Assembly (NCBI RefSeq): GCF_001719045.1
Contig: NZ_CP015423.1
Location: forward strand, 4,525,501 to 4,589,500
Reading direction: 5' to 3'
Source: Paenibacillus polymyxa
GTDB taxonomy: Bacteria; Bacillota; Bacilli; Paenibacillales; Paenibacillaceae
DNA length: 64,000 nucleotides
Positions 846 through 19,443 of this stretch are shown one piece after another. A model generated the notes under the pieces. It made no database searches. It was given only the letters and a program-made list of their open reading frames with translations, and was not told where the DNA came from. Position 1 is the first letter of the stretch; the number at the start of each line of letters is the position of its first letter. A program made the position numbers and the translations under genes.

Positions 846-857
846 GAGGTCTTTATA

Positions 858-1268: not shown

Positions 1269-1277
1269 GTGTGAAGC

Positions 1278-2764: not shown

Positions 2765-2901
2765 CATTTTGGACTCTTGCTTTTAAGTGGAACTGGGTAA
2801 CGGCAGAGAAATTGAAGGGCGCAGTAATCACGGAGACAAATCGTTTCGGAGAAATCACACCGGAAGAATACAAGACCATTACAGGCGTGGACTTCCAGTA
2901 A
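2761..2901 (+). CDS. xkdX: XkdX-family small phage protein
   Basis: A 46-residue protein reading MTFWTLAFKWNW, then an AEKLKGAVI segment and GEITPEEYKTITGVDF. The short length, aromatic N-terminus and the 'ITPEEYKxITGxDF' ending are the marks of the XkdX family of PBSX-like tail modules. Its ATG overlaps the stop of the preceding gene by 4 bases, so the two are translationally coupled. Function is unknown; its place between the tail fibre and the tail-tip genes is conserved. Confidence 0.8.
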   Translation: MTFWTLAFKWNWVTAEKLKGAVITETNRFGEITPEEYKTITGVDFQ

Positions 2902-2933
2902 GGAAAATTTTCCTTGCCTGATAGGAGGACGCT

Positions 2934-3560: not shown

Positions 3561-3568
3561 GAGGGCTT

Positions 3569-6024: not shown

Positions 6025-6048
6025 GGGGTACAGCTCCTTTTTTCATAG

Positions 6049-6057
6049 ATTATACCA
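6049..6057 (-). promoter_or_regulatory. Extended -10 promoter of the moron gene
   Basis: On the minus strand the sequence reads TGGTATAAT, a perfect -10 with an extended TGn element, 24 bases ahead of the TTG start. No good -35 is seen, as is allowed for extended -10 promoters. It gives the reversed gene independent expression from the phage late promoter. Confidence 0.55.
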
Positions 6058-6139
6058 TTTATTACGGTAATTCAGGCTAAAAGTTTTAGTTATTTGGGGG
6101 AGGTGATCAGTTATGTAATAACAAAATATCTACCTGTGT

Positions 6140-6170
6140 AGTCCCTGGAGTGGTCAGGGGCTTATTTGTT
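6140..6170 (+). terminator. Probable hairpin terminator between tail and lysis genes
   Basis: AGTCCCTG and CAGGGGCT form an 8-bp stem with one G-U pair and a 7-base loop, followed by a T-rich run (TATTTGTTTT). It could end late transcripts or attenuate entry into the lysis cassette. Confidence 0.45.
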
Positions 6171-6263
6171 TTGGAATAATTTTAAGGATAATTAACGGAA
6201 TAATTTACAAGGATTTTGACAAAGGGCAGGACAATTTTCCTGACCCAAATAGGGGGAAGAGTT

Positions 6264-6728
6264 ATGCATGAGAAAGTCGATCAGGCAATTAAAGGCTTAT
6301 CCGCAGGGGCCATGATCGGTTATTTTTTCGGGGGGTGGACAACGATGCTAACGCTATTGTGGTGGATGGTCGTTATCGACTTCTTCACTGGATGGGCAGC
6401 GGCCTGGATTAATGGGGAGCTGAAAAGCAGGAAAGGGTACTATGGCATAGCTCGTAAGGTAGCAATATTTCTAATGGTTACAATTGCTCATTTGATTGAT
6501 CGTATTCTGGGGGATGCACACTATTTCCGAGATGCGGTCATTTTCTTTTATTTAGCGAACGAATTGCTATCAGTCATTGAAAATGTAGGGAGAATGGGGG
6601 TTCCGATGCCCGATATTTTACGTAATGCCGTGAAAATCTTCGAGTCTCGTTCCCAGGCACCTCAAAACCCGAATATGCCGGAACCGGAGCCAGAAAAAAA
6701 AGACCAGGGGCAAAAGCCTGCTGTATAA
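6264..6728 (+). CDS. Phage holin (family 4, TcdE/phi29-like)
   Basis: A 154-residue membrane protein. I chose ATG at 6264 (MHEKVDQAIKG) after GGGGGAAG; an upstream TTG lacks a site. Three hydrophobic segments are visible: about 15-35 (MIGYFFGGWTTMLTLLWWM with VIDFFTGW), 65-80 (VAIFLMVTIAHLIDRIL) and 90-105 (AVIFFYLANELLSVIENV). The motif VVIDFFTGWAAAWINGELKSRKG is typical of this holin family. The tail is Pro/Glu/Lys-rich and cytosolic. It forms the membrane lesion that releases the endolysin encoded next. Confidence 0.88.
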   Translation: MHEKVDQAIKGLSAGAMIGYFFGGWTTMLTLLWWMVVIDFFTGWAAAWINGELKSRKGYYGIARKVAIFLMVTIAHLIDRILGDAHYFRDAVIFFYLANELLSVIENVGRMGVPMPDILRNAVKIFESRSQAPQNPNMPEPEPEKKDQGQKPAV

Positions 6729-6741
6729 GGGGAGAACAAGA

Positions 6742-7572
6742 ATGCAAGCGAGGAAAAAAAGTAATGCGCAGGGAATCGACGTATCCCGTTATCAAGGAAA
6801 CATTGATTGGAAGATGGCCAAGGCAGATGGTATTTCATTTGCCTTCATCAAGGCCAGCCAGGGGCAACGTTACGTTGATCCTACATTCACCACGAATGCT
6901 AAAGGAGCCAGGGCAGCCGGGGTATTGTTAGGGGCTTATCATTTTTTAGATGCCACCAGTGTTGAGGCAGCCAAAGCCGAAGCGAGGCATTTTGCTGATG
7001 TGTTGGACCAGGTTGGAGGTGCTAAAGCGTTGGACCTTCCTGCGGTAATGGACTATGAAAACAATCCCGGTAACCTATCTAAAACGCTTATTAGTGCTGT
7101 AGCGTTGGCCTTCTTGCTGGAGCTGGAGCGACTTACAGGACGCAAGCCCATTATCTATACAGGTAATGCATTTGCAGCTAATTTTAACGCTTCATTGGGC
7201 GGTTACCCATTATGGATAGCCCGATACAGTGATACTCGCGTCCCAAGCGACACAGTGACGTGGAAACGTTGGGATATTTGGCAATACAGCGATAGCGGTA
7301 AGATTAAGGGCATCGCTGGAAATGTCGATCTGAATGAGTTTGACGGTACGGCGGACGAATTGCGGACACGGTTCAACAAGAAGGGGGAAAATACAGTGGC
7401 AGAAAAGCAGAGAGACATTAACAAGGTTAGCCCGTGGGCAGCGGATGTATGGGAGGAAATGACCAAGAATGGTTACTTTGATGGAACACGTCCCGGCGCA
7501 CCGATTACACGGGAAGAAGCTGCGGCAGCTCTAAGCCGTCTACGTCAAAACATTCTCAAGGGGGACAAATAA
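6742..7572 (+). CDS. Endolysin: GH25 muramidase with SLH-like C-terminus
   Basis: A 276-residue lysozyme-like enzyme that cuts the MurNAc-GlcNAc bond. Residues about 9-200 form the GH25 barrel: GIDVSRYQG (D13), the AFIKASQG strand, the PAVMDYEN motif with D104 and catalytic E106, and the WDIWQYSDSG ending. After a linker, residues about 225-270 (VSPWAADVWEEMTKNGYFDG and ITREEAAAALSRL) resemble one SLH repeat and probably bind the cell wall. No signal peptide is present, so release depends on the holins on either side. It is shorter than enzymes with three SLH repeats but looks complete. Confidence 0.93.
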   Translation: MQARKKSNAQGIDVSRYQGNIDWKMAKADGISFAFIKASQGQRYVDPTFTTNAKGARAAGVLLGAYHFLDATSVEAAKAEARHFADVLDQVGGAKALDLPAVMDYENNPGNLSKTLISAVALAFLLELERLTGRKPIIYTGNAFAANFNASLGGYPLWIARYSDTRVPSDTVTWKRWDIWQYSDSGKIKGIAGNVDLNEFDGTADELRTRFNKKGENTVAEKQRDINKVSPWAADVWEEMTKNGYFDGTRPGAPITREEAAAALSRLRQNILKGDK

Positions 7573-7574
7573 CC

Positions 7575-7922
7575 ATGATCGAACAATACATCTCAAATAT
7601 TACGCTGTCACTGATTGGACTTGGTACGCTTGGCCTGCTTATACTGGCAGCTTCCTTGTATCGCAAGGTTAAACCGATCTATGAAGCACGTTTTAACATT
7701 GAGCAGCGCAACAGAATTGGACAACTGGCCCAAGACGCTTATGCATGGGTAGAGCGAAACTATGCTGGAGCTGGCGCGGGAAAGTTTCATGAGGCTGTTA
7801 AGTATCTAACCGTCAAACTGGGTCAGATTGGCGTATCTATCAAACCGGAGGAAGTCGAGGCTGCAATACAAAAGGCCTGGGAAGAATTTAATCCTGAGAA
7901 GCATAAAAACATTATGAAGTGA
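7575..7922 (+). CDS. Second holin, LL-H family
   Basis: A 115-residue protein with one N-terminal membrane span (about residues 8-30, ITLSLIGLGTLGLLILAASLY), a basic R-K turn, and a cytosolic helical tail holding IGQLAQDAYAWVERNYAGAG and SIKPEEVEAAIQKAWEEF. This layout matches the phage LL-H holin family. It begins 2 bases after the endolysin stop. Together with the first holin it makes a two-holin cassette, perhaps one acting as antiholin or pinholin. It is the last gene of the late operon and is followed by a terminator. Confidence 0.82.
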   Translation: MIEQYISNITLSLIGLGTLGLLILAASLYRKVKPIYEARFNIEQRNRIGQLAQDAYAWVERNYAGAGAGKFHEAVKYLTVKLGQIGVSIKPEEVEAAIQKAWEEFNPEKHKNIMK

Positions 7923-7931
7923 AAGGAAGCT

Positions 7932-7966
7932 CCCCCTACTGGCCTTTGCTGGTAGGGGATATTTTT
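7932..7966 (+). terminator. Late-operon terminator (bidirectional)
   Basis: CCCCTAC and GTAGGGG form a strong stem around an 11-base loop, followed by ATATTTTTATT. It ends the tail/lysis operon and could also serve the leftward gene whose stop lies at its right edge. Confidence 0.75.
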
Positions 7967-8219
7967 ATTGCAGCGAATCAAATAATTGAATAGCTTCTTC
8001 ATCACTAAGATTATATTCAGACCGACACAATTTTTCACCAGTAACATCTTCTTCAGATGCTTGTTCTTTATGTTGGCTTTTCTGAAATTCCTCGCGACTT
8101 GGCCAAAATTCATGAAGCGTTGCATCTTTCTCCCCAAAACCAAGGTCTATTTTGAAATTCACTCGCGCAACGATTCTACCATCTTTCTCTTTTAAAATAG
8201 TCTTTTTAATCATAATCAT
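7965..8219 (-). CDS. Small hypothetical phage protein in lysogeny block
   Basis: An 84-residue soluble protein with a strong AGGAGG site 5 bases before ATG. It opens with basic MIMIKKTILKEKDGR, then a beta-rich core and an acidic C-terminus (LSDEEAIQLFDSLQ). No domain was recognised and there is no signal or membrane segment. It is the last leftward gene of the immunity block, so it may be expressed in the lysogen, where superinfection exclusion or toxin-control genes often lie. That role is only positional. Confidence 0.65.
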   Translation of the reverse strand: MIMIKKTILKEKDGRIVARVNFKIDLGFGEKDATLHEFWPSREEFQKSQHKEQASEEDVTGEKLCRSEYNLSDEEAIQLFDSLQ

Positions 8220-8287
8220 AGCAACCTCCTATCTAAATAATTTGTTTAAACAAGTTTACCAGTACTAGGAAAAAATATCTAGTAGTA

Positions 8288-8316
8288 TTTACAAAATCGC
8301 CCATTTGATTTATAAT
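8288..8316 (+). promoter_or_regulatory. Strong sigma-A promoter for a probable small RNA
   Basis: TTTACA (5 of 6 to the -35 consensus), a 17-base spacer, then a perfect TATAAT. It points rightward between two leftward genes. The start of transcription should fall near 8323. No protein gene follows before the terminator. Confidence 0.7.
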
Positions 8317-8322
8317 GACTGC

Positions 8323-8408
8323 AACACATACGGAAGCACCGCTGTGCAATCCGAAAGTATCGGTAAAAAAGCTCTGCTAACCTTAAATTGGTCTGCAGAG
8401 CTTTTTTT
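8323..8408 (+). ncRNA. Putative phage small RNA (about 85 nt)
   Basis: A strong promoter at 8288-8316 is followed after about 45 bases by a textbook intrinsic terminator (AAAAGCTCTGC and GCAGAGCTTTT, then seven T). Between them are two more small hairpins, GCAC-CGCT-GTGC and CCGA-AAGTA-TCGG. The only frame inside starts within the -10 box and has no ribosome site, so a peptide product is unlikely. It lies in the lysogeny block on the strand opposite to its neighbours. No known RNA family was recognised. A regulatory RNA expressed in the lysogen is the simplest reading. Confidence 0.6.
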
Positions 8409-8442
8409 ATTCTGAATTTTTTTCTTTACTAATTTTCTGGAC

Positions 8443-9318
8443 TCAATAGATTCTACCCCGATTTATAACTTCCTCTAAGTCTTTCATTTGCAGTAGTAGT
8501 GTTTTTGCAGTTGCACCGTATTTACGGATAATCCGGCCTAACATAAGCTTTACGTTCCCGGGTCCGAAATAAACGATGTCATGTTGAAGAATTTTCACCC
8601 CTTCAAAATCTAATGGATTGTCAATCTCGATTTGCTTAAAGGGACCATCCAATGGGATTGGAAATTCTCTTTTTTGAGATAGTGTAATTTCATCTATATG
8701 AAATATAAGCTGAGATGGCCCTTCATAAAATGATGGATCGTAATATGCATAAATTGTTGGTTCACTAATCTGTGGTGTTTTTTTAGACACCACTCCTTTC
8801 GCAGTATTGTTCTGCTGTGCAATGCTTGTCTGTATTTGCCCTTCATAATTTCGCCGCATTATTTGGTTTAGTCTTTTCCTAGCTAGGTAAATAGGGACCT
8901 CAAATGTATCAGATAGGTATAGAAGGGCATCGTTAAACAACGTCGGGAACTTAAGCCTAGACAGCATAAAAAAAGGCATTGAAGCATAGAGAACGAACTG
9001 ATCTGCATCCGCTTCTTGGAGTTCAACGAACTCTTTAGGCATAACTGTTTGATTACCTGCGTGCCTTAGCAAATGGCTGACTTCATGGAGAAATTCAATA
9101 CGTTGTTCCTTTTGTGGCAGGCGATTATCTAAAAGAATACTGCGTAAACCTGTTGCTGACTCATACGCTTTGCTTTTTTGGGAAAGAGAATAAATCCATA
9201 TGTCCAACGTTTCGGTGATTTTATCAATGGTTATATGTTGAGGTTCAGTAATACCATTTTTTAAATATATATTTTCTATACAATGCTCTAAGTATGTAGT
9301 TTGATAGTGGGAAATCAT
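8443..9318 (-). CDS. ImmA/IrrE-type metallopeptidase
   Basis: A 291-residue protein starting at ATG after CGGAGG; a longer frame to 9378 lacks a site. HEVSH (residues 78-82) is the zinc-binding HExxH of the ImmA/IrrE family, with a downstream EADADQF that supplies the third ligand. The C-terminal 130 residues form a beta-rich domain of unknown role. In ICEBs1, ImmA cleaves the repressor ImmR to start induction. Here it lies 87 bases after the leftward repressor gene, the same arrangement, so it is the likely antirepressor protease for SOS or other signals. Confidence 0.87.
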   Translation of the reverse strand: MISHYQTTYLEHCIENIYLKNGITEPQHITIDKITETLDIWIYSLSQKSKAYESATGLRSILLDNRLPQKEQRIEFLHEVSHLLRHAGNQTVMPKEFVELQEADADQFVLYASMPFFMLSRLKFPTLFNDALLYLSDTFEVPIYLARKRLNQIMRRNYEGQIQTSIAQQNNTAKGVVSKKTPQISEPTIYAYYDPSFYEGPSQLIFHIDEITLSQKREFPIPLDGPFKQIEIDNPLDFEGVKILQHDIVYFGPGNVKLMLGRIIRKYGATAKTLLLQMKDLEEVINRGRIY

Positions 9319-9405
9319 GGTGTACCTCCGGTTAATGGGAATATAAGTTCGTATGTATAAGCATGGGGAATCAGCCAACGGCTGAAACCGTGAACCTAAA
9401 AATGG

Positions 9406-10299
9406 CTATTCTCCTTGGCGATCCCCGGGTTTTCGATTCTTTTCAGTCTCTTGAATGAATCTCCAGAATTGCAGCAGTTCTCTTTTTCGTTCTTCTGGAG
9501 CGTTCAGATAATCTTTGAAAAAGACTCCATGGTCAGGGTTATTTACAAATGCTTCAAACTGTTTTAATTCATTACTAGTAATACCATTGTCCTCATCAGC
9601 ATTTTTTTGGAATTCTTCGTAATTGTGCAATATCCCCATTGCTTTCAAGTAATACTCATTGATCATTTTGTGTTTTTCTGTCTCACCCTTTATTCTCCCA
9701 ATAAGTTCTACAGCATTATAAAGAGACTCATCAATTCCGAGTATAGAAGAAATTTTTGATTTAGATACTTTCTTTGATTCTCTAAGTTCTTTTAAACGGT
9801 CTAACTTTGATATCTCAGCTTCAGCATCGATTGATTTCAATATAATTTTATAGCCTTCCAATAATGTTTCTGGAGGACTATCAAAAACTTGCTTATATAC
9901 CCTTTTCAACTCTTGAGATAATTCATCATTAGGTAGTGACTGAACCCAATCAATTTTCTTTTCTATATCATCGGCTGGCATTTCCCCATCTGACAGTAAC
10001 TTAATTAGTTCAGTTAATGAATTTTTAACTGATTTTGCTGTATCCATCGAAGATTTAACCTCATTAGGAGCTTTTTCATAATAGCCCGCAAGAATGAGTT
10101 CATGTGGATCTCCACCTGTAATTTCTGCTAAAGCTCTGTTTATTTCCTCTGAAGCTGGATATTTTGGATCATTTCTTAATTTTGATATATATGACCTGTC
10201 TATTTTAATATTCTTTTCCTCTTGCATTCTTTTGGCTATTTCCCCTAAGCTCAAACCGCTCTCTTTGATGTATTTGTCCACCAGTTGAGAATAAGTCAA
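9406..10299 (-). CDS. Prophage immunity repressor (XRE-type HTH)
   Basis: A 297-residue protein. Residues about 1-70 are an XRE helix-turn-helix (LSLGEIAKRMQEE, RSYISKLRND, INRALAEITGGDP). The rest is highly charged and helical, probably for oligomerisation and for cleavage by the ImmA-like protease. It is unusually long for a repressor of this type. It is read leftward from the divergent operator region and opposes the Cro-like gene, with which it shares the helix pattern 'ALAEI-G-DP-EL'. It should keep the lytic operon silent. Confidence 0.82.
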   Translation of the reverse strand: MTYSQLVDKYIKESGLSLGEIAKRMQEEKNIKIDRSYISKLRNDPKYPASEEINRALAEITGGDPHELILAGYYEKAPNEVKSSMDTAKSVKNSLTELIKLLSDGEMPADDIEKKIDWVQSLPNDELSQELKRVYKQVFDSPPETLLEGYKIILKSIDAEAEISKLDRLKELRESKKVSKSKISSILGIDESLYNAVELIGRIKGETEKHKMINEYYLKAMGILHNYEEFQKNADEDNGITSNELKQFEAFVNNPDHGVFFKDYLNAPEERKRELLQFWRFIQETEKNRKPGDRQGE

Positions 10300-10333
10300 T
10301 TTTTTTCGACCTCCAGTAATCTTTATATCAATA

Positions 10334-10363
10334 ATATTACCATGTTGTTGAATTTTTAATCAA
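10334..10363 (-). promoter_or_regulatory. Putative repressor promoter
   Basis: Read on the minus strand: TTGATT, an 18-base spacer, then TAATAT, 35 bases ahead of the repressor start. It is moderately close to sigma-A consensus and back to back with the rightward early promoter. Confidence 0.45.
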
Positions 10364-10394
10364 CACTTTTTTTGATGTTGTGACTTTTACGTCA

Positions 10395-10423
10395 TTGACA
10401 TGTTGCAAGTCGATTGGTAAGAT
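10395..10423 (+). promoter_or_regulatory. Early rightward promoter (lytic operon)
   Basis: A perfect TTGACA, a 17-base spacer and TAAGAT. It is preceded by a TGAC-N6-GTCA inverted repeat (10381-10394) and followed by the large palindrome at 10433-10472, so repressor bound on either side would block it. It should drive the Cro-like gene and the whole early operon. Confidence 0.7.
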
Positions 10424-10432
10424 TTGAACAAC

Positions 10433-10472
10433 AAGTGACTAAAAAATCACATGTGTGATTTAAAAGTCACTT
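10433..10472. promoter_or_regulatory. 40-bp nested palindrome, likely repressor/Cro operator
   Basis: The outer arms are AAGTGACT and AGTCACTT; the inner arms AAATCACA and TGTGATTT meet at the centre. The two nested inverted repeats share a TGACT / TCAC theme with the upstream GTGACTTTTACGTCA element. It lies between the early promoter and the ribosome site of the Cro-like gene, covering the transcribed leader. This is the expected place for an immunity operator. Confidence 0.65.
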
Positions 10473-10488
10473 GAACTGGAGGTGAAAC

Positions 10489-10755
10489 ATGTTATATGCA
10501 AAATTACTAAAAAGAGGAATAGCATTGAAAGGTCTATCGTTAAGCCAAATTTGTTTTCAACTTGCAAAAAGGGATATTTGGTTGGATAGAGCGCTGATCA
10601 GCAAGTTACAAAACGGAAAACTTCCTCCTGCAAAGGATCAAGTAAACGTTGCATTGGCGGAAATAATCGGAATCGATCCTGTTGAACTAAGATTAGCTGC
10701 CGCGCGAGAAGTAATTGATCCAGAACTATATGAATTAATCCGGAGTAATGGGTGA
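10489..10755 (+). CDS. Cro-like XRE regulator
   Basis: An 88-residue protein with GGAGGTG 6 bases before ATG. It is essentially one helix-turn-helix domain (LSLSQICFQLAKRD, ALISKLQNGKLPPA, NVALAEIIGIDPVEL) plus a short helical tail. Its domain layout parallels the N-terminal domain of the divergent repressor, as expected for a Cro/repressor pair acting on the same operator. First gene of the early operon. Confidence 0.78.
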   Translation: MLYAKLLKRGIALKGLSLSQICFQLAKRDIWLDRALISKLQNGKLPPAKDQVNVALAEIIGIDPVELRLAAAREVIDPELYELIRSNG

Positions 10756-10802
10756 TTACAAAATCAAGATAAAATCTGAATCATTTTAAGAAGGGGAGAA
10801 AT

Positions 10803-11564
10803 ATGGGCAATATTCAACCAATAGAACAAAAGATGGTTCCTTTCAACGGAGCCGAGTTACTTGGAGTAAAGGCCAGTGACGGAAATATTTATGTGGGGGT
10901 CCGTTGGGTTTGTGAAGGGTTGGGCCTACGGGAGGGGCAGCGCAATAATCAATTAACTAAGGTTCAGACAGATCTGGTCCTTAAACAAGGGGTACGAAAA
11001 TTCATACTCCCCACCAGAAGTGGCGAACAAGAGGTTTTAACTATTCAATTGAACTTTTTTCTTCTCTGGGTGGCGCGTATAAGCCCTAATATTTTAGAAG
11101 GTGATGCACAGGAAAATCTTATCGAATACCAATTAAAGGCTAAAGACGTTCTTGCTGATGCGTTTTTACCGAAAGTATCTAATCCCTACGAAAATTTAAG
11201 CCCGGAAGTCAGAGCTATCTTTGTTATTGACGAGAGGGTTCAAGATTTAGATTCCCGTGTGGAACAGCTTGAGAATCACACCACTATCGACTATGGGCAA
11301 CAGCGAGAATTAAAGAAAGCTGGCAACTCCCGGATCGTTGGATTGCTTGGAGGTAAGAAGTCAGCCGCCTATAAGGATAGTAGCTTACGCAATAAAACAT
11401 ATCAGGCGATGTGGAATGATTATCAAGAGTTTTTTAGTATCAACTCTTACAACAATACATTTACAAAAGATTATGACCGTGGGTTGCAATATATCCCGCG
11501 TTGGACTCCACCTAATAACCTTATGAGGGAGATTGAAGAAGCTAATGGACAAACTTTATTCTGA
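10803..11564 (+). CDS. Phage antirepressor (P22 AR N-terminal plus ORF6C type)
   Basis: A 253-residue protein. Residues about 10-110 resemble the P22-type antirepressor N-terminal domain (FNGAELLGVKASDGNIYVGVRWVCEGLGL, FFLLWVARISPNIL). Residues about 135-250 resemble the ORF6C domain (LDSRVEQLENHTTIDYGQQRELKKA, YIPRWTPPNNL). Such proteins inactivate the repressor by direct contact or interfere with host regulators. It follows the Cro-like gene. Its last 20 bases overlap a small unlisted gene. Confidence 0.85.
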   Translation: MGNIQPIEQKMVPFNGAELLGVKASDGNIYVGVRWVCEGLGLREGQRNNQLTKVQTDLVLKQGVRKFILPTRSGEQEVLTIQLNFFLLWVARISPNILEGDAQENLIEYQLKAKDVLADAFLPKVSNPYENLSPEVRAIFVIDERVQDLDSRVEQLENHTTIDYGQQRELKKAGNSRIVGLLGGKKSAAYKDSSLRNKTYQAMWNDYQEFFSINSYNNTFTKDYDRGLQYIPRWTPPNNLMREIEEANGQTLF

Positions 11565-11661
11565 TTTGTCATTACCGGAGCTGACCCGTCTTTGGTTCGG
11601 GAACCCGTTGCAACATGCAGTGCTTGTTAAAAACCTGATTAGGAAGGAACGGAGAAAATGA
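11545..11661 (+). CDS. Small overlapping phage gene (38 aa), hypothetical
   Basis: A 38-codon frame that starts 20 bases inside the antirepressor end and stops with TGA inside the next start (ATGA). It encodes an amphipathic, basic peptide (opening MDKLYSDLSLPELTRLWFGN, ending NLIRKERRK). It fills what would otherwise be a 94-base gap, and its overlaps at both ends fit the tight packing of the operon. No good ribosome site is visible, so it would rely on coupled translation. Confidence 0.5.
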   Translation: MDKLYSDLSLPELTRLWFGNPLQHAVLVKNLIRKERRK

Positions 11662-12275
11662 AAAAAAAATATTACGAGGCATTGGGAACTAAGTATGACA
11701 AATTGCAGTCTGCAATGGTTGTTATTTTAAAACGTTTTATTGAGTCGGGAACAGAGGGCGACATTGAAACCCGCGAACGAAAGCTGTTTATTAAGTACAT
11801 TATTATTTCAAAAATGCAGGCTCGAATTTTGGATGAACTGGTATCAAGAACACAAAAGATCATCAAGCGCTTTGATGGTATCAGAATTTCATTGGGCGAT
11901 CCTTACTACGAACAAGACGATTATATCCACGTAAAATCTTGCTTAATGGAATATGAAGACCGGATTCGGCAAAATGCGATGCGTGTATATGAAATCGCAA
12001 TGTATGTGGATACCAAAAGCGCCTATTTCAGCGAATCCGAACTTCGGAGCATGCTTTCAATTGGTTATGAAGATTGGAAATATTGGTTAGGCCGGAATAA
12101 CACATTAATGACAATGTTGGTTACGAAGGTAGGCAACGAGCCTTTGGCCCACCATGTCATGGATTACATGATGAATCAGATTATGGGCCATCCAGAAGCC
12201 CGTAAGATGATGCGGCAAAAAGCCGAGGAAATTTTTCCAGAGCTGTTCCCACGTACTGGCGGTGATTCTCTATGA
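11658..12275 (+). CDS. Hypothetical early phage protein (205 aa)
   Basis: A highly helical, charged, soluble protein with GGAACGGAG ahead of ATG. Several amphipathic helices are visible (LQSAMVVILKRFIESGTEGD, MQARILDELVSRTQKIIKRF). It ends in a Met-rich helix (MDYMMNQIMGHPEARKMMRQKAEEI). No motif was recognised. It overlaps the next gene by 4 bases, so they may act together; position suggests an early host-takeover or DNA metabolism role. Confidence 0.72.
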   Translation: MKKKYYEALGTKYDKLQSAMVVILKRFIESGTEGDIETRERKLFIKYIIISKMQARILDELVSRTQKIIKRFDGIRISLGDPYYEQDDYIHVKSCLMEYEDRIRQNAMRVYEIAMYVDTKSAYFSESELRSMLSIGYEDWKYWLGRNNTLMTMLVTKVGNEPLAHHVMDYMMNQIMGHPEARKMMRQKAEEIFPELFPRTGGDSL

Positions 12276-12919
12276 AAACACATGAAGAATTGAAAGCAAT
12301 AGCTGCTGATATGCATAAGCAACTAGGAGGGAAGATATTTGCCTTCCCAATAGAAGAAGAAAACCCTTTGTCTAAATTCGCAGTGGCTGCATTTAACGGG
12401 AAAGACTACTCTGTTTACCCTAACGCTATGACCATCGAGGAAGCGGCTGCTGGCATTTTAGAAGTTTTGAATGGATTTAAAGAAGAAGGTTGGGATCACG
12501 ACTATGAACGCAATGTACGTTTCGTTTCCTGTCAAGCTCAAATTGATGCGCCCAGCGTAACTATGCGGAGACTAAAAAAAGGGAATTACACTAGACCAGC
12601 TTATGAAAGTGACATAGACGTTATGGACAATCCTGACGATCCAGAAGGCAAGCTCATTTCTGCGCGTGGATTAATCAAATTCAGTTACTTGACTATGATT
12701 AATGAGAAAAATCCTGTGGCTATCAGGTTTATGGATGAATATTACAAATTGCTTGCTTCTTTCAGATACGGGAAAACAGCAGCGGCAATTAAGCAGGAAG
12801 TACGGCGTATGGGGAAAGACGAGGCTATTCATTGGATCGAGCGCACCCATGAACGTTACATCAAGGATGATAGAACTATAATGGACATCTTTCATTCCTT
12901 GGGAAAGGGTGAACAGTAA
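12272..12919 (+). CDS. Hypothetical early phage protein (215 aa)
   Basis: A 215-residue soluble protein, coupled by overlap with both neighbours (ATGA upstream, TAATG downstream). The N-terminal 95 residues look like an alpha/beta domain (IFAFPIEEENPLSKFAVAAF). The middle is Asp/Pro-rich (DIDVMDNPDDPEGK) and the C-terminus helical (IHWIERTHERYIKDDRTIMD). No enzyme motif was recognised. Nothing beyond its early-operon position indicates function. Confidence 0.72.
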   Translation: MKTHEELKAIAADMHKQLGGKIFAFPIEEENPLSKFAVAAFNGKDYSVYPNAMTIEEAAAGILEVLNGFKEEGWDHDYERNVRFVSCQAQIDAPSVTMRRLKKGNYTRPAYESDIDVMDNPDDPEGKLISARGLIKFSYLTMINEKNPVAIRFMDEYYKLLASFRYGKTAAAIKQEVRRMGKDEAIHWIERTHERYIKDDRTIMDIFHSLGKGEQ

Positions 12920-13164
12920 TGAACCTTGCTAATCAATTGACTCTCAAGGAAGTCCGTGAGAACTGCAAGAAGTCAGTCCCACAAGTTAGTAATGATACAG
13001 GGATCTCAGGTACTACATTAAGACGATGGGAAGAAGATGCTTCAGGGGCTGGAGTACATGCCTTTGTACGTCTGTTGCGTTACTATCAAATATCTATTAA
13101 CAACGTTTATGCAGGCAAGGCAGAAGACGTATACAAAGCCCGTAGAGAGGCGGTGAGCGTGTAA
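12919..13164 (+). CDS. Small XRE-type HTH protein
   Basis: An 81-residue DNA-binding protein: LTLKEVRENCKKSVPQVSND, then the recognition helix region GTTLRRWEEDASGAGVHAFV and ISINNVYAG. This is a single helix-turn-helix with a short basic tail. It is the third such regulator of the prophage and may tune early-to-middle expression. It overlaps the genes before and after by one base (TAATG). Confidence 0.75.
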   Translation: MNLANQLTLKEVRENCKKSVPQVSNDTGISGTTLRRWEEDASGAGVHAFVRLLRYYQISINNVYAGKAEDVYKARREAVSV

Positions 13165-13409
13165 TGATGGATTCCAACACAGTGTTAAACCATACATTAA
13201 CTTGCATGACCCTTTCAGAGATTCAAAGGGAACTGATTTATATTTTCCACTTCATACAAGATGATGAATTTACTAAGGACCTATTGTTAGAACGAATGGT
13301 CAAAGTGATTGAGAGGGTTCGCGAAGAAGAAAGTTTTCACTTTGGTGTACTTGGTGAGCATTTTGAAGAAAAAGCAAAGAGCCTTAACAATACCTTGGCC
13401 GGGCGTTAA
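13164..13409 (+). CDS. Hypothetical phage protein (81 aa)
   Basis: A short, acidic, helical protein (MTLSEIQRELIYIFHFIQDD, LLLERMVKVIERVREEESF). The start is ATG overlapping the previous stop; a second ATG lies 3 bases on. No domain recognised. It is followed by a 93-base gap that holds a long stem-loop. Confidence 0.62.
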   Translation: MMDSNTVLNHTLTCMTLSEIQRELIYIFHFIQDDEFTKDLLLERMVKVIERVREEESFHFGVLGEHFEEKAKSLNNTLAGR

Positions 13410-13421
13410 GGCACACTATCA

Positions 13422-13482
13422 AGGGACAAGCCCACGCGCACATTATAGCACTACATATTCAAAAAGTGCAAGGGCTGTCCCT
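13422..13482 (+). other. Long imperfect stem-loop in early operon
   Basis: The arms pair in three steps: AGGGACA/TGTCCCT, GCCC/GGGC and GCAC/GTGC, separated by small bulges, with a loop of about 24 bases. It occupies one of the few gaps of the tightly packed operon, 13 bases ahead of the ribosome site of the next gene. There is no T-run after it, so it is not an ordinary terminator. It may be an RNA processing or translational control element. Confidence 0.5.
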
Positions 13483-13502
13483 CCAAAGGGAGAGGATCGG
13501 TT

Positions 13503-13904
13503 ATGTCAACTATAAAGAATAAGGTAAACAGAGAAGAGGGGCTTTCTCCTAAATTACGTAGCGCTGTTTCTACGTTGGTTAATCGCTTGGGCGCATCCCA
13601 AACTTTACTTTTACTGGATAAAGCGGCGACCTCTCTGGACATTAATTCTTATGAAGATCCAATATCCATGGGATTTTTGGTTCAAGAAATAGCATGCGGG
13701 GTTGAAGATATCCCCCATTGGTCAGGTAAGAAAGTGGTTGTTACTGCTCATGGAATTAGACCCGAAGATGGGATTCTTTTTGTCACGGCTGCTTGTGATG
13801 ATAATCGCCAGATAACGTGGTACGCACGACCAATTAACATAAATGGTACTGAAACTACTGAATTTAGCCGCAATTGGTATGAGGACGGGAGGGACCGAGT
13901 GTGA
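13503..13904 (+). CDS. Hypothetical phage protein (133 aa)
   Basis: A 133-residue soluble protein after GGGAGAGG. The N-terminal half is helical (LRSAVSTLVNRLGASQTLLL) and the C-terminal half beta-rich (KVVVTAHGIRPEDGILFVTA). No domain was recognised. Its GTGA overlap with the next gene indicates coupling. Confidence 0.65.
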   Translation: MSTIKNKVNREEGLSPKLRSAVSTLVNRLGASQTLLLLDKAATSLDINSYEDPISMGFLVQEIACGVEDIPHWSGKKVVVTAHGIRPEDGILFVTAACDDNRQITWYARPININGTETTEFSRNWYEDGRDRV

Positions 13905-14209
13905 ATGTAGCATCGGAAAAAATCCTTCCCTGGGAAATTGAAATGTTTGAACTTCTGTCCGGATATCCCAAATTACCTGATAGCGCATTTCAAGGTAAAT
14001 ATCATCACATTAAATTTAATTGGACCCAATTTACAATGCGTTCAAATGATATGGTTGAAGCTGCTTATTTGGCTATCATGCCTTTTACAGATTCAGCAGA
14101 ACGGGAACAGTTCGCAGCTCAATATATATATCGTCTTTTAGAACCGGGCTATGAGGCCGCAATATGCAATTTCTTTGAAGCTGCTTTTGGGCTTCAAGGG
14201 ATGGAATAA
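13901..14209 (+). CDS. Hypothetical phage protein (102 aa)
   Basis: Starts at GTG overlapping the previous stop. An acidic, aromatic-rich helical protein (PWEIEMFELLSGYPKLPDSA, WTQFTMRSNDMVEAAYLA). No domain recognised and no membrane segment. It sits just before the replication genes. Confidence 0.62.
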   Translation: MNVASEKILPWEIEMFELLSGYPKLPDSAFQGKYHHIKFNWTQFTMRSNDMVEAAYLAIMPFTDSAEREQFAAQYIYRLLEPGYEAAICNFFEAAFGLQGME

Positions 14210-14245
14210 ACCGAAATAGAAGCAATGAAATGAGTGGATGCAGAT

Positions 14246-15193
14246 ATGGAAGGGTGGATTAGCCTTCATCGAAAACTTATAGAAAGCGAGATATGGGAGA
14301 AGCCTCCACTCTATATGAAGGTGTGGATATTCCTTCTCCTATCTGCCCAGCACAAACAATACAAAGGACTAAAGCCTGGACAGATATCAATGTCTATTCC
14401 AGATATCATTGAGGGGGTTTCTTGGAAGGTAGGAGCAAGGAAAGAACGACCTACAAAAGATCAAGTTTATCAGGTTTTAGAATTTTTACGCGGTAAAGCG
14501 ATGAAATCGAAACGAAGCCCTGACGAAAGCAACGAAAATGTAGCGATGATCACGACAACGAAAGCAACGCACAAAATGCTGATAACCATATGTAACTATG
14601 AGGTTTATCAGGACAAATCAAGGGACGAAAGCAACGGCGAAAGCAACAAGGATAAGCCGACGAAACCGTCACGAAAGCAACGGCAACCCAACAATATAAA
14701 CAATAATGATAATAATGACAATAATAAGACCCCTCCTTCTCGCAAAAATGCTAAACGCATTTACGAGGAAGATAATCGCTATTATCAAATGGCTTTTTAT
14801 TTTCATGAAAAGATCATGGCTCATGCAGCGGCAAATAAAGTTGAACACCTTGTCCGTAATGCCAACATGCAAAATTGGGCAGACGAGTTTCGGAAAATCG
14901 TTGAGATAGACGAACGGGACACCAAAGAAATGCAAAGGATTATTGATTGGGCAACGTCTCATAGTTTTTGGAGTCCTAATATCCTTAGTCCAAAAAAGTT
15001 ACGTGATAAATATTCAGAACTTGGAATCAAGATGGCTATGGAAGGAAAGTCAGGGCAAGGAACTAGCAACCGACAAACACAGAGCAAAGACTTTCTACAA
15101 AGGAAAAAGGAGGCTATGCGAAATGACAGAGGAACAGACGATAGATTTGTTAACCCTGATAGCTACAGCTTACCCGACGTTCCAAGCGAATGA
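14246..15193 (+). CDS. Phage replication initiator (DnaD/replisome-organiser-like)
   Basis: A 315-residue protein; I prefer ATG at 14246 (MEGWISLHRKLIES, the usual opening) over GTG at 14234. Residues 1-115 form a winged-helix DNA-binding domain (YMKVWIFLLLSAQHKQYKG, KDQVYQVLEFLRG). A low-complexity Lys/Ser/Asn linker (about 120-175) is encoded by the iteron and AT-rich region. Residues about 180-260 form a helical DnaD-like domain (EMQRIIDWATSHSFWSPNIL). It should bind the iterons in its own gene and recruit the loader and helicase encoded next. Confidence 0.82.
   Translation: MEGWISLHRKLIESEIWEKPPLYMKVWIFLLLSAQHKQYKGLKPGQISMSIPDIIEGVSWKVGARKERPTKDQVYQVLEFLRGKAMKSKRSPDESNENVAMITTTKATHKMLITICNYEVYQDKSRDESNGESNKDKPTKPSRKQRQPNNINNNDNNDNNKTPPSRKNAKRIYEEDNRYYQMAFYFHEKIMAHAAANKVEHLVRNANMQNWADEFRKIVEIDERDTKEMQRIIDWATSHSFWSPNILSPKKLRDKYSELGIKMAMEGKSGQGTSNRQTQSKDFLQRKKEAMRNDRGTDDRFVNPDSYSLPDVPSE
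14524..14731 (+). other. Putative phage replication origin: five iterons plus AT-rich tract
   Basis: Five exact copies of CGAAAGCAAC start at 14524, 14559, 14626, 14638 and 14672, with degenerate relatives nearby (CGAAACGAAG, CGAAACCGTC). They are followed at about 14689-14731 by an AT-rich tract built of AATAAT/GATAAT units, a likely unwinding element. The repeats lie inside the linker region of the initiator gene, the position of the origin in lambda and in several Gram-positive phages. Confidence 0.78.
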
Positions 15194-15437
15194 TGAAGTA
15201 TTGTCCCTTTGGAATAAAATGCTGGCAGATATCCCGGCAGAAAGAGCAACCCGCAATTTGCAGCAGCATATTAAAACAATGAAATTCCCCCCTACTATCG
15301 CGGAAATACGGGGTAGTGAAGGAGCCTCCATGATTGACAACATAAGATTAGAAACCCAGCAGCGATTACAGCAAATTAAGCATTGGGAAGAAAACGCATG
15401 TCCTAGGCTATCGTCAGGGGTGAAGCAAGATGCATGA
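15123..15437 (+). CDS. Replicative helicase loader, G39P-like
   Basis: A 104-residue protein starting at ATG 15123 with AGGAGG about 10 bases ahead, overlapping the initiator end by 71 bases in another frame. The segment MTEEQTIDLLTLIATAYP, the helix AERATRNLQQHIKTMKFPPT and IAEIRG are typical of SPP1 G39P-type loaders, whose N-terminal helical bundle is followed by an unstructured tail. It delivers the DnaB-like helicase to the initiator-bound origin. Its end overlaps the helicase start. Confidence 0.78.
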   Translation: MTEEQTIDLLTLIATAYPTFQANDEVLSLWNKMLADIPAERATRNLQQHIKTMKFPPTIAEIRGSEGASMIDNIRLETQQRLQQIKHWEENACPRLSSGVKQDA

Positions 15438-16743
15438 CGTTTTCAATGTTGAAGCTGAACAAGCTGTACTTGGTAGCTTGCTGCTGGATCGGACTACTGA
15501 AACCGCTGATTTGGTAATGAGCAGATTGGAACCGGACCATTTTTCACCGCAACACCGTTTGATTTTTGAGGCGGCAAAAGAGCTGCATGAAACTTCAAGA
15601 CCGATTGACCTTATCTTGCTTCGCACAGTGCTTGAGGAAAGAGGAACTTTGCTGGAATCGGGCGGGATTCAATATCTTTCTAACCTTGCTGGATCAGTAC
15701 CAAGCTTGAGCAATATTAAATATTACGCTGGGCTGGTTGAAGAGAGGGGCTTAAAGCAACATGTTGGGAAAATGCTTGAAAGGCAAAAACAAGCATTTGA
15801 CGAAGGAGCAGACCCTAAAGAACTGCTTGCCGGGATGCAAGAGGCGACAGATGAAATAAACGGGCGTATCCGGTCAGATAACCAACTTCAACGTGCTGGC
15901 GACTTCTTAGATGGTCATGATGACGAATTGGAGCGCCGCAGAGAAGCAAAGGGGCTATCTGGAGTGCCTACGGCAGGCGTAGACATAGATAACCTAACAG
16001 GAGGTCGCCAGAAGCAGGATTTAATTATCGTGGCTGCGCGTCCCAGTGTTGGTAAAACTGCTTTTATGTTGAACGGTGCTCAGAGAGCTGCGGAAGCGGG
16101 TTATGCTGTTGCGATATTTAGCCTTGAAATGCCCGGCGCAAAATTAGGGGAACGGCTGATAGGCAGTATAGGGAATATTGATGGTCATATGTTGCGAACA
16201 GGCAATTTAGGTGCATCTGATTGGACTAAATATACAATGGCGAGATCCATTCTAAATGACCTGCCTATTTACATTGACGATACGCCGGGCATTTCAATAC
16301 AGGAAATTGCATACAAGGTCAAACAGTTCAAGAAAAAGCATGGAAATATACTGGTTCAAGTTGATTATCTCCAGCTTATCAATCCTGGGAAGAAATTCGG
16401 AAGCCGGGAGTTGGAGATTAGCTTCATAAGTCGTTCTCTCAAGCAGATGGCACGAGATAATGACTGTCCAGTGGAAGCACTGGCTCAACTCAGCCGAAGC
16501 GTAGAGCAACGGCAGGACAAGCGTCCTATGATGTCAGATTTACGGGAATCCGGTTCTATTGAGCAGGATGCAGACGAAATTGACTTTCTATACCGGGACG
16601 ACTATTACAATGCTGAGAGTGAAAAGAAGAATATCGTTGAAATTATCATAGCCAAAGGCAGAAACACGGGTACAGGTTTGGCAGAAATGGTCTATCTCAA
16701 AAACTACAGCCGTTTTTGTAATCTGGAACGGGTTCAGTATTAA
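15430..16743 (+). CDS. Replicative DNA helicase, DnaB family (phage)
   Basis: A 437-residue hexameric helicase. The N-terminal DnaB domain begins FNVEAEQAVLGSLLLD (residues about 4-105). The RecA-like domain has Walker A RPSVGKTAF (about residue 205), the FSLEMPG motif, Walker B ILVQVDYLQLI, and the final SDLRESGSIEQDADEI and AKGRNTGTG (Arg finger) motifs. Length matches DnaB. It overlaps the loader gene by 8 bases. With the initiator and loader it makes a complete origin-firing set; no phage polymerase was seen, so host polymerase is used. Confidence 0.95.
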   Translation: MHDVFNVEAEQAVLGSLLLDRTTETADLVMSRLEPDHFSPQHRLIFEAAKELHETSRPIDLILLRTVLEERGTLLESGGIQYLSNLAGSVPSLSNIKYYAGLVEERGLKQHVGKMLERQKQAFDEGADPKELLAGMQEATDEINGRIRSDNQLQRAGDFLDGHDDELERRREAKGLSGVPTAGVDIDNLTGGRQKQDLIIVAARPSVGKTAFMLNGAQRAAEAGYAVAIFSLEMPGAKLGERLIGSIGNIDGHMLRTGNLGASDWTKYTMARSILNDLPIYIDDTPGISIQEIAYKVKQFKKKHGNILVQVDYLQLINPGKKFGSRELEISFISRSLKQMARDNDCPVEALAQLSRSVEQRQDKRPMMSDLRESGSIEQDADEIDFLYRDDYYNAESEKKNIVEIIIAKGRNTGTGLAEMVYLKNYSRFCNLERVQY

Positions 16744-16768
16744 CAAATGATGAAAGGGAGGCGTTACC

Positions 16769-17149
16769 GTGACAGAACCATTGCACAAGGCTTCTATAAC
16801 TGAGGAAAACAGCCTCCTGATTGTCAATTTTGAAAGTATGTTCATCCGACAGGTTCAGGGAGCATATGACCAACACAAGATGGATGAAGTAATGTATCGG
16901 CATTTTAAGAACATCCGGTGTATAGCAGAGACGAGAGAAGGAATACTTGATCATTTTGTATCTCTGTTCAGACAACTGATTGACTATCATTCTGAAAGGA
17001 ACAGCACTCGCAATCAACTGCTTGCACGGATCATCAAAGGTGCTGAATTGATAGAATCGACCCCTAAAGAACACCCAAAATACAGTTATTATGTCCGCGT
17101 GTACGATGCGCTTTGTCAAGAACTTCGGGAAATCGAAGAGAAAGGATGA
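16769..17149 (+). CDS. Hypothetical phage protein (126 aa)
   Basis: Starts at GTG after GGGAGG. An all-helical charged protein (FESMFIRQVQGAYDQHKMDE, HFVSLFRQLIDYHSE). No domain recognised. It follows the helicase in the early operon and may assist replication, but only position suggests this. Confidence 0.65.
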   Translation: MTEPLHKASITEENSLLIVNFESMFIRQVQGAYDQHKMDEVMYRHFKNIRCIAETREGILDHFVSLFRQLIDYHSERNSTRNQLLARIIKGAELIESTPKEHPKYSYYVRVYDALCQELREIEEKG

Positions 17150-17153
17150 AATC

Positions 17154-17570
17154 ATGAAGATAGAAGCCGCAGAAGTAGCCCAACAGCTTAGTGATATTTT
17201 GAAGGGCATCAAAACAGAGTACGAACACCTTGATCGTGAAGTTCGATATTACGATTTGGAATGTACGGATCTGCTTCACGCTTTAGAGTTTATGGAATTT
17301 GATAATGACATGCGACTGAACATTTCTCAGCAACTTCAAGACAACAGGCGAAAACGTAGAGTGATCAAAAACGAAAGAGAGTGCTTGCAGCCGTTGTATG
17401 AAGTCTCAGAAGGGCATCCGCATTTAGTTTACGAGTTTGAAAGAGCGAGATGGAGGGCTGAAAGGATTGAATGCATACAGAAGCAGCGTATGTATACACC
17501 ACGAATCAGAACGGATATGCAGCAGGCTTTTGACAGGGTGAACCGCAGGAATGATGAAGCAGGGGGTTGA
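17154..17570 (+). CDS. Hypothetical coiled-coil phage protein (138 aa)
   Basis: ATG at 17154 follows an AAAGGATG site, 4 bases after the previous stop. The protein is rich in Glu, Arg and Lys with long helices (AEEVAQQLSDILKGIKTEYE-like opening, RLNISQQLQDNRRKRRVIK, FERARWRAERIECIQKQR), suggesting a coiled coil. No known domain. It ends 4 bases into the next gene's upstream site. Confidence 0.65.
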   Translation: MKIEAAEVAQQLSDILKGIKTEYEHLDREVRYYDLECTDLLHALEFMEFDNDMRLNISQQLQDNRRKRRVIKNERECLQPLYEVSEGHPHLVYEFERARWRAERIECIQKQRMYTPRIRTDMQQAFDRVNRRNDEAGG

Positions 17571-17572
17571 GT

Positions 17573-18073
17573 ATGAGCCAACCAACAACCGATTTACCGA
17601 AGTTAGATAATAAAAAAACAAAAAATGCAATAGAAGGTGTCTTTGAAAAGTATCAAATATTCAAAAATACGATATTTGAGCTAAGAGAAGCAACTATTAC
17701 AGCCAGTTATCAAGACCGTCCAAGCGGGCCAACCAATGTTACAAGTGATTCCACTGCGGATATTGCAGTATTTAATGTGTTCGCGCCTGAACACCGCAGA
17801 CAATTTTGCAAAAATGTCGAACAGGCTGTGAACCAACTTTATCCTAAGTACAGAGAAATAATCGAATTGAAATATTTGGGTGACGACATGCCGACTGACT
17901 ACGCAGTTTACAATTTCAAGATGGAACATCCTATTAGTAAGGATACTTACGCTAAATTACGGAGAAAAGCATTTCAAACTTTAGCATATAGTTTTGATGC
18001 TTTTGGGATTATCAACATACAGAATTTGTTAGATAAAAAACGTGCAAACATACGGACAAGCAGCCTCGAATAA
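17573..18073 (+). CDS. ArpU-family late transcription regulator
   Basis: A 166-residue protein; ATG at 17573 follows AGGGGG at the right distance, better than the in-frame TTG at 17567. The C-terminal half is a sigma-like helix-turn-helix (LYPKYREIIELKYLGDDMP, then ISKDTYAKLRRKAFQTLAY). This matches the ArpU family found at the end of early operons, which switches on packaging and lysis genes. Its place next to attR, just before the late genes on the circular phage genome, fits that role. Confidence 0.82.
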   Translation: MSQPTTDLPKLDNKKTKNAIEGVFEKYQIFKNTIFELREATITASYQDRPSGPTNVTSDSTADIAVFNVFAPEHRRQFCKNVEQAVNQLYPKYREIIELKYLGDDMPTDYAVYNFKMEHPISKDTYAKLRRKAFQTLAYSFDAFGIINIQNLLDKKRANIRTSSLE

Positions 18074-18105
18074 ACTATACAACCAAGATCGGAGGGGAGG
18101 GAACG

Positions 18106-18318
18106 ATGTTAAGTCCAAAGGGTTATGGCGACTCACACGCACATAAAAAAGTGGAAATTGAGAGCAAGGTCACAACGTACATTCAGGGCAAGAATGGACT
18201 CATTGGAATCATAATCCCGCCCTGTGAGGGGCCGACAAGCGCATTAGAAGACCTTCATCGGACGATTGCTGAAATAGCAATCAAACAAGCCATAAAGAAA
18301 GAAGCTACTCCAGAATAG
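18106..18318 (+). CDS. Small hypothetical phage protein next to attR
   Basis: A 70-residue protein with GGGAGGG ahead of ATG. It has a beta-rich centre (VTTYIQGKNGLIGIIIPPCE) and a helical tail (LHRTIAEIAIKQAIKKE). No domain recognised. It is the last phage gene before prkA. Small genes beside an att site are sometimes recombination directionality factors, so this is a candidate, but no basic DNA-binding motif is evident. Confidence 0.6.
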   Translation: MLSPKGYGDSHAHKKVEIESKVTTYIQGKNGLIGIIIPPCEGPTSALEDLHRTIAEIAIKQAIKKEATPE

Positions 18319-18336
18319 GGGCAGCTTCTTTCTTTA
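18298..18336 (+). terminator. Terminator at right end of prophage
   Basis: AAAGAAGCT and AGCTTCTTT form a perfect 9-bp stem around a 16-base loop, followed by TCTTTATATA. The stem overlaps the last codons of the small gene. It insulates prkA from the early operon. Confidence 0.65.
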
Positions 18337-18387
18337 TATATAGGTAGCTTAGTAAAAAAGACTGCTACATCAACGTTTTTATTTTGG

Positions 18388-18420
18388 GTGTATCAAGTAA
18401 TAACGTATGAACTGATCGTG
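18388..18420. other. Putative right attachment site (attR) in prkA
   Basis: The frame changes from unrelated sequence (VYQVITY) to conserved PrkA sequence (ELIVAHTNE) at about 18,409. The crossover core should lie at or just right of this point. The exact core cannot be set without the left junction. Confidence 0.6.
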
Positions 18421-19443
18421 GCTCACACCAATGAATCCGAGTATAAAAGCTTTATTGCAAACAAAAAGAACGAGGCGTTGCAATCACGGATGATTGTAAT
18501 GCCGATTCCTTATAACCTGAAAGTATCTGAGGAAGAAAAGATTTACGCCAAGCTCATTGATCAAAGTGATATGAGACATATCCACATTGCGCCTCATGCG
18601 CTGAGAACGGCTGCCATTTTCTCCGTGCTTACCCGCTTGAAGGAGACGAAGAAACAGGGGATGGATCTGGTCAAAAAGATGCGCATGTATGACGGTGAAG
18701 AGGTCGAAGGATACAAGGAAGCCGATCTGAAGGAAATGCAAAGTGAGTTTCTGGAGGAAGGTATGTCCGGGGTAGACCCGCGGTACGTCATTAATCGTAT
18801 TTCTAGTGCATTGATTAAGCAAAATGTGGAATCCATCAATGCCCTTGACATTTTACGAGCAATTAAGGATGGTCTGGATCAACATGCCTCCATCACAAAG
18901 GAAGAACGGGAGCGGTATCTGAATTTCATTTCCGTGGCTCGTAAGGAATATGACGAATTGGCGAAAAAAGAAGTGCAGAAGGCCTTTGTCTACTCTTTCG
19001 AGGAATCAGCCAAGACGCTGTTTGACAACTATTTGGATAACATCGAAGCCTTTTGCAATTGGGCGAAAATTCGCGATCCGCTCACAGATGAGGAACTCGA
19101 CCCGGATGAGCGGCTCATGCGCTCTATTGAGGAGCAAATCGGGGTATCGGAAAATGCGAAAAAAGCGTTCCGTGAAGAAATATTAATCCGTATTTCCGCG
19201 TATTCTCGCAAGGGACGAAAGTTTGAGTATCATCATCATGATCGCCTGCGAGAAGCCATTGAGAAGAAGCTGTTTGCTGATTTGAAGGATATTGTGAAGA
19301 TTACGACTTCGACCAAAACGCCTGACGCTAATCAGCTCAAACGGATGAATGAGGTGATTAAGCGACTGATTGAGGAGCACGGCTACACAGGAGCCAGCGC
19401 CAACGATCTGTTAAGGTATGTAGGTAGCCTCCTGAATCGGTAA
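18388..19443 (+). pseudogene. prkA: prkA, 3' part, interrupted by the prophage
   Basis: From ELIVAHTNESEYKSFI to the end (YVGSLLNR) the frame is a highly conserved PrkA, the AAA+-type serine kinase/protease needed for full sporulation in Bacillus. Full PrkA is about 630 residues; only about 345 authentic residues are here, so the N-terminal half with the Walker A region must lie left of the prophage. The visible part holds the end of the AAA+ module and the C-terminal PrkA domain (EEGMSGVDPRYVINRISS). The GTG at 18388 has no ribosome site. The fragment has no stop or frameshift, so it would be restored if the phage excised. Its own terminator follows. Confidence 0.93.

Follow-up and report, generated by a model that had tools for sequence, protein, structure and literature searches.

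A prophage splits prkA at codon Glu288 in Paenibacillus polymyxa: a possible intervening element in a recurrently interrupted sporulation gene

The window analysed here is a stretch of 64,000 nucleotides of the Paenibacillus polymyxa chromosome, which is assembled as one contig of 5,756,938 bases (genome G000; the window is G000:C1:4525501-4589500). It opens within a 34.4-kb prophage, and directly to the right of the prophage lies the 3' part of prkA; the other end of the prophage and the 5' part of the gene are found to the left of the window. The features are listed below, with plain numbers counted from the first base of the window and those prefixed G000:C1 taken from the chromosome.

G000:C1:4508655-4509518: prkA 5' part, 288 codons, stop-free up to the junction, 34.4 kb left of the 3' part and outside the window
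G000:C1:4509514-4509518: attL copy of the core ATGAA
G000:C1:4509519-4525500: left part of the prophage, outside the window, with small and large terminase, portal, head protease, capsid and major tail genes
G000:C1:4509523-4511178, convergent to the prkA 5' part: large serine recombinase (LSR), 551 aa, at the left end of the prophage
1-18406, no strand assigned: right part of the 34.4-kb prophage
3569-5485, plus strand: phage minor head/tail protein
6216-6728, plus strand: phage holin
6742-7572, plus strand: phage endolysin
10803-11564, plus strand: phage antirepressor-type protein (P22_AR_N, ORF6C)
15430-16743, plus strand: phage DnaB-like helicase
17567-18073, plus strand: 168-aa phage protein preceding the small gene below, no Pfam family
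18106-18318, plus strand: 70-aa candidate recombination directionality factor (RDF), SprB-like, last phage gene before attR
18292-18337, plus strand: terminator-like hairpin ending the candidate RDF gene (-25.6 kcal/mol; shuffled sequences average -9.1)
18382-18437, no strand assigned: attR region, phage arm and host arm
18407-18411, plus strand: attR core ATGAA, copy of the Glu288 codon region
18412-19443, plus strand: prkA 3' part, Leu289 to the stop (343 codons plus stop), with the rest of the AAA domain and the C-terminal PrkA domain
35585-37027, minus strand: spoVR, uninterrupted, strong family match in an open frame
37024-38217, minus strand: yhbH (DUF444), uninterrupted, strong family match in an open frame

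The prophage divides prkA at codon Glu288, inside the AAA domain, into parts of 288 and 343 codons that are both intact. A first-pass annotation of the window had proposed from the right-hand flank that a prophage interrupts the gene, and this is borne out by the phage genes and the two prkA halves found around one insert. The 3' fragment that it recognised is genuine PrkA sequence (PF06798, E 4e-92; PF08298, E 1e-32), and the 3' end that it gave, 19443, stands; the prkA-derived part, however, starts at 18412 with Leu289 and not at 18298. Its statement that the fragment contains no stop holds for the frame back to 18319, but one in-frame stop is present within 18298-19443, at 18316-18318 in the phage part. 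The elements that it suggested seeking to the left of the window are all there: an undecayed 5' half of 288 codons, an attL core copy and, directly at the junction, the 551-aa LSR. A stop directly follows the prkA 5' part, then comes the convergent LSR gene, and 34,393 bases separate the two copies of the 5-base core. With both halves open and in frame, precise excision would indeed restore prkA. A complete second prkA, whose presence was named beforehand as evidence against the idea, was looked for throughout the source genome, and no prkA was found there beyond the two halves. SpoVR is often grouped with PrkA and YhbH; spoVR and yhbH are uninterrupted, as had been stated, but lie 16.1 kb rightward of the prkA 3' part instead of 17 kb.

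The same split was found in other genomes. A search of 39 genomes with the AAA_PrkA family showed two split genes, in G000 and in P. ottowii (G015). In a genus sample prkA was present in 75 of 75 genomes and split at the Glu288 codon in four (G000, G015, G096, G098); the same LSR (E <= 1e-100) occurred in exactly those four. The comparison with relatives recommended earlier leaves 71 of the 75 free of both this split and the LSR. In one further genome of this sample, G084, two abutting prkA matches lie elsewhere in the gene. When species genomes were searched with the LSR, by exact peptide patterns and then tblastn, 17 loci were obtained in 16 genomes. Among these 16, prkA was split or partial in 12, intact in 3 and not found in 1. 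At nine of the 17 loci the LSR ended no more than 120 bases from a prkA junction; at a tenth the distance was about 0.75 kb. A class-wide sample of 299 genomes contained 205 with a prkA match (E <= 1e-40), at least nine of them split at the Glu288 codon (G000, G206, G207, G242, G255, G276, G337, G342 and one copy in G379); the full-length status of the other prkA genes was judged from best E-values and, for 20 multi-copy genomes, also from a separate check of the copies. In each of the eight split genomes other than G000 an LSR lies in or beside the element.

Both halves are open to the junction in 18 of the 19 genomes tried, which range from Paenibacillus to Desulfofundulus, and their joined length is 625-632 codons, the shorter values reflecting the start codon chosen in the analysis. 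The exception is P. alvei, which has a second break in the prkA 5' half. Since the same split occurs at the same codon in other species, chance is excluded as its origin; the prkA split is real and recurrent. The elements themselves vary. In P. ottowii the left-arm genes differ from those of the G000 prophage and the ends are closely similar; this locus (G015:C11:678064-754000) encodes two identical LSR proteins, whose genes are separated by 38 kb and by a phage-phage junction, and its prkA probably holds two tandem prophages. In Desulfofundulus and G207 the LSR is at the attR end beside the prkA 3' half, the reverse of the arrangement in G000.

The attP composites are inverted repeats. Their best centre falls on the GA of a GAA/GAG codon in 18 of 19 elements, and the symmetry exceeds that of shuffled sequences at p < 0.05 in 14 of the 19; for attB no clear symmetry was seen. 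Because the attP symmetry centres on the GA of that codon, we assign the crossover to Glu288, a codon of the AAA domain, with 18409-18410 as the predicted crossover dinucleotide in attR. ACCAAA-like repeats are shared by the attP arm and the LSR promoter region (L017:5679-5790, and some other Paenibacillus LSRs), possibly for self-regulation by the recombinase. Before the LSR of G000 and some others, inspection by eye also revealed a box similar to TATAAT, accompanied by repeats like those of the attP arm.

The prophage LSR is related to SprA, the integrase of SPbeta (SPBc2), with 41% identity and a match E of 1e-135. In a tree of 35 rows (34 different), partly chosen for sitting in prkA, an SprA-type group of 32 rows is set apart, with support 100/100, from the three remaining LSRs, which come from the same genomes. 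This group holds the prkA-site LSRs, SprA and LSRs in other genes. Two of the latter lie inside spoVFB, in Siminovitchia fordii (L038:5001-8032) and in a viral contig (L143), where the dipicolinate synthase B model matches at E 2e-49 and 1e-49, respectively, and they nest among the prkA-site LSRs in a four-row clade (100/98). In Paenibacillus selenitireducens an SprA-type LSR adjoins a fragment (L040:6641-6860) that we take to be gerE-like, having compared SDHKTKFLLTNREREVFELLVQDKTT by eye with GerE. Another, in Paenibacillus sp. 2.1, lies in a GDP-mannose dehydratase-like gene. Among viral contigs with the LSR, 7 of 22 carry an adjoining prkA 5' piece; some of these contigs resemble the strains of the species-genome search, and many of the others end at the LSR through trimming. 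In a record labelled Pseudoxanthomonas sp. J31 a Paenibacillus-like phage end carries this LSR, and the genome has no prkA match, probably a case of contamination.

At the attR end of many elements lies a small ORF, and these ORFs form one family; in several other elements they are preceded, as in G000, by an ORF resembling the 168-aa protein in size and sequence. A profile of 11 small ORFs was run against 4,614 small ORFs pooled over every locus, with overlap between some of the loci. SPbeta SprB was ranked directly after the ORFs from LSR-bearing elements, at E 0.0086, and the small ORFs of G207 and G379 scored at noise level. The AlphaFold model of the 70-aa protein, made from six sequences that did not include SprB, has a mean pLDDT of 66. 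When it was compared by Foldseek with 350,542 PDB chains, the top two of 49 matches were chains of 56-57 residues from the SPbeta integrase-RDF complex 9dxd (E 0.45 and 1.3), which would be SprB judging by their length. SprB was not found by profile searches of the PDB sequences with profiles lacking SprB. A profile match of alignment A1 to an SprB-LSR fusion in the PDB was discarded as circular, A1 itself containing SprB; without SprB there was no match. Searching the whole database with the 70-aa protein, by a method that needs shared exact words, gave only two relatives, 93-96% identical, from two candidates. As regards position, the LSR and the small gene sit at opposite ends of the prophage and would meet at attP in the circular form. 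The 70-aa protein is likely an SprB-like directionality factor.

Some elements at the Glu288 codon are far smaller than a prophage. In the four smallest, of 2.2, 3.0, 3.9 and 4.6 kb, the LSR frame is stop-free and the prkA halves are open. The 2.2-kb element (G207) consists of a 533-aa LSR and two 55-aa ORFs, the first of which is on the other strand and has a ribosome-binding-site-like stretch and a hairpin. The others contain an LSR together with a thioredoxin-reductase-like gene (G255, 3.0 kb), an M29 peptidase and a Dabb protein (G276, 3.9 kb) or two TauE permeases (G379, 4.6 kb). No phage structural genes were seen among the genes tested by Pfam in these elements. Their cargo (thioredoxin-reductase-like, M29 peptidase, Dabb, TauE) is host-like. 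Fresh infection does not easily explain such small remnants.

Beside Glu288 (site C in this series), prkA has three further sites, each with another LSR family. In the order of Desulfofundulus a prkA match was present in 106 of 113 genomes. The three sites and the sequences in which they are broken are as follows.

Site A, codons ~138-142: G407, G423, P. alvei DSM 29 and a viral contig (L138)
Site B, codons ~253-258: G392, G407, G414, G415, G416, G417, G420 and Desulfocucumis
Site D, codons ~467-470: G414, G416 and Desulfocucumis

An LSR domain lies within about 3 kb of the junction in 12 of 14 genome-site pairs (sites A, B and D, the viral contig left out); at site B of G414 the nearest LSR is 16 kb away, and at site B of G416 there is none on that contig. 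LSR identity is 57-73% within site A, 47-64% within site B (G462 included) and 64-92% within site D, as against 22-33% between sites among the pairs listed, and because of this low identity between sites we conclude that four integrase families converge on prkA. In Desulfocucumis palustris the gene is present in four pieces on three contigs, with breaks at sites B, C and D; all of these share one reading phase and together give 634 codons with no internal stop, 74% identical to PrkA. An extra partial prkA-like fragment (residues 34-137) is found on the contig of its 5' piece. Three prkA pieces of G414 join to 642 codons, and two breaks each were found in G407 (A, B) and P. alvei (A, C). The site-A recombinase of P. 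alvei belongs to another family and looks frameshifted. G462 has a prkA 5' piece with a site-B-type LSR and no 3' piece. The verified count leaves out G425, where the site-A break falls at contig ends, and genomes with single or partial prkA matches (G391, G397, G401, G402, G419, G434, G439, G458, G461, G463, G465, G469, G472, G478, G483). prkA is apparently an unreported hotspot for recombinase-bearing elements, with four sites in distantly related spore formers.

The anatomy of the locus, the open frame, the site, the recombinase family, the recurrence across species and the small remnants are all features that can be read off the genomes, and excision is to our mind the best reading of the split gene. 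We put a probability of roughly 0.68 on the following mechanism. An SprA-type LSR, encoded at the left end, would integrate the prophage at the GA of codon Glu288. With the break inside its AAA domain, prkA would be off in the lysogen. The LSR, acting with the putative SprB-like directionality factor from the right end, would then excise the prophage and join the 288 and 343 codons without a scar, restoring PrkA. We infer that, as for SPbeta and spsM, sporulating mother cells would be the place of this event and that cells would need it; the spore would thus keep the phage and the mother cell, which dies anyway, would get PrkA. A role of PrkA in sporulation is described in PMC13001217.

The G000 prophage retains head, tail, lysis and replication genes and could for that reason be an ordinary recent lysogen. 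Promoters of the sigma-E/sigma-K type, scanned for by their consensus, were found before 2 of 19 candidate RDFs against 0.97 expected from shuffles (p 0.25), in a weak scan that the known SprB passes on its -10 box alone. The LSRs showed no enrichment for such promoters either; the one of G000 has the TATAAT-like box instead. Together with the patchy occurrence of the split, in 4 of 75 genus genomes, this suits a temperate phage that simply has its attB in a conserved part of prkA, leaves the lysogen prkA-negative and excises on lytic induction only, with no developmental timing. We nevertheless regard such a phage as an unlikely, if serious, alternative. It does not readily account for four LSR families (22-33% identical between sites among the pairs listed) at four sites of one gene, for small elements without recognised phage genes that keep the recombinase, for LSR relatives in spoVFB and gerE, or for halves that are both open in 18 of the 19 genomes tried.

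For prkA we calculated dN/dS values of 0.010 among split genes of four species (6 pairs), 0.011 among five intact genes (10 pairs) and 0.0115 for mixed split-intact pairs (20 pairs). Of 11 intact genomes listed, G073, G009, G019 and G054 were dropped, the motif not being found; G005, G048 and four more distant split genes were read in and left unpaired. The low values would be expected of a recent insertion as much as of a working gene, and cannot separate a functional split gene from the former. They do speak, at 0.010 for split and 0.011 for intact genes, against a pseudogene left by insertion in strains for which PrkA is dispensable, with halves that decay or act alone. Although full PrkA is impossible in the lysogen, G379 has a second, full prkA and some other genomes have two or three copies, this explanation is very improbable, as both halves are open in 18 of the 19 genomes tried and are unlikely to work alone with the AAA domain cut. 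Broken or partial second prkA copies were seen in G353, G160, G161, G283 and G326. An assembly artefact, which the location of the halves on different contigs in several other cases might suggest, can practically be dismissed, since both G000 halves lie on a single 5.76-Mb contig, the halves share a contig in G206, G207, G242, G255, G276, G342, G379, P. ottowii, P. sp. 598K, J31TS4 and Terribacillus, and the flanks carry attL/attR hybrids.

Beyond excision of the single prophage, there may be a broader pattern, to which we give about even odds: prkA would be a hub for developmentally excised elements, with at least four LSR families independently specific for four sites in Bacilli and Desulfotomaculum-like bacteria. 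Genes with two or three elements, every one of which would have to leave, as in Desulfocucumis palustris, would then form a multi-lock on mother-cell PrkA. The whole SprA-type clade would have mother-cell genes (prkA, spsM, spoVFB, gerE) as its speciality, since a break in the germ line can there be mended in the soma. Should excision prove to be timed, prkA would join sigK, spsM, spoVFB, spoVR, gerE and yabG as a mother-cell gene rebuilt by DNA rearrangement, a case in which four integrase families use four sites and one gene has up to three breaks. The rule, if true, would be that phages settle in genes for which only the doomed mother cell has a need. The 2.2-kb element would represent a near-minimal excision system, and the series of LSRs with known attB sites would offer a ready set for studies of recombinase specificity and for DNA-integration tools.

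The prophage lies inside a sporulation gene, its excision could restore the frame and a serine recombinase is encoded within it, as is characteristic of intervening elements. The interrupted sporulation genes named in the literature consulted are sigK, spsM, spoVFB, spoVR, gerE and yabG, prkA not being among them, and our search of published papers, mostly open-access ones, found no prkA element. The closest parallel is the SPbeta prophage in spsM of Bacillus subtilis with SprA and SprB (Abe 2014, PMC4191935; Suzuki 2019, PMC6957869). The two prophages share the LSR family, the in-frame halves of a sporulation gene and the position of the integrase and a small gene in the place of the rdf at opposite ends, sprA (yokA) being at one end of the SPbeta record and sprB (yotN) at the other. 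They differ in target gene and site, and the RDF candidate is weakly similar to SprB. In SPbeta, sprA has a sigma-A promoter (PMC6957869) and SPbeta excision is timed by a mother-cell promoter of sprB (PMC4191935), whereas our scan found no such promoter for the prkA prophage.

The vfbin (spoVFB) and vrin (spoVR) elements, as far as they are mentioned in PMC4191935 and PMC6957869, are likewise in mother-cell sporulation genes, and spoVFB is also a target of the present LSR clade in Siminovitchia fordii. Their genes differ from prkA, which has four sites and up to three breaks per gene. The skin element in sigK of B. subtilis and C. difficile resembles the prkA element in splitting a sporulation gene and encoding a serine recombinase; skin of B. 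subtilis is described as a defective prophage (PMC6957869), whereas structural and lysis genes are still present in the G000 element. The elements in G207, G255, G276 and G379 are without recognised phage genes, as is gin in gerE of Bacillus cereus, but gin is 28.6 kb long with three recombinases (PMC5595907), whereas the smallest prkA elements have 2.2-4.6 kb and one recombinase. The yin element in yabG of Clostridium botulinum is, like the prkA prophage, prophage-like with a serine recombinase and a putative RDF; it is reported from one strain (PMC10747680), whereas prkA elements occur in many genera.
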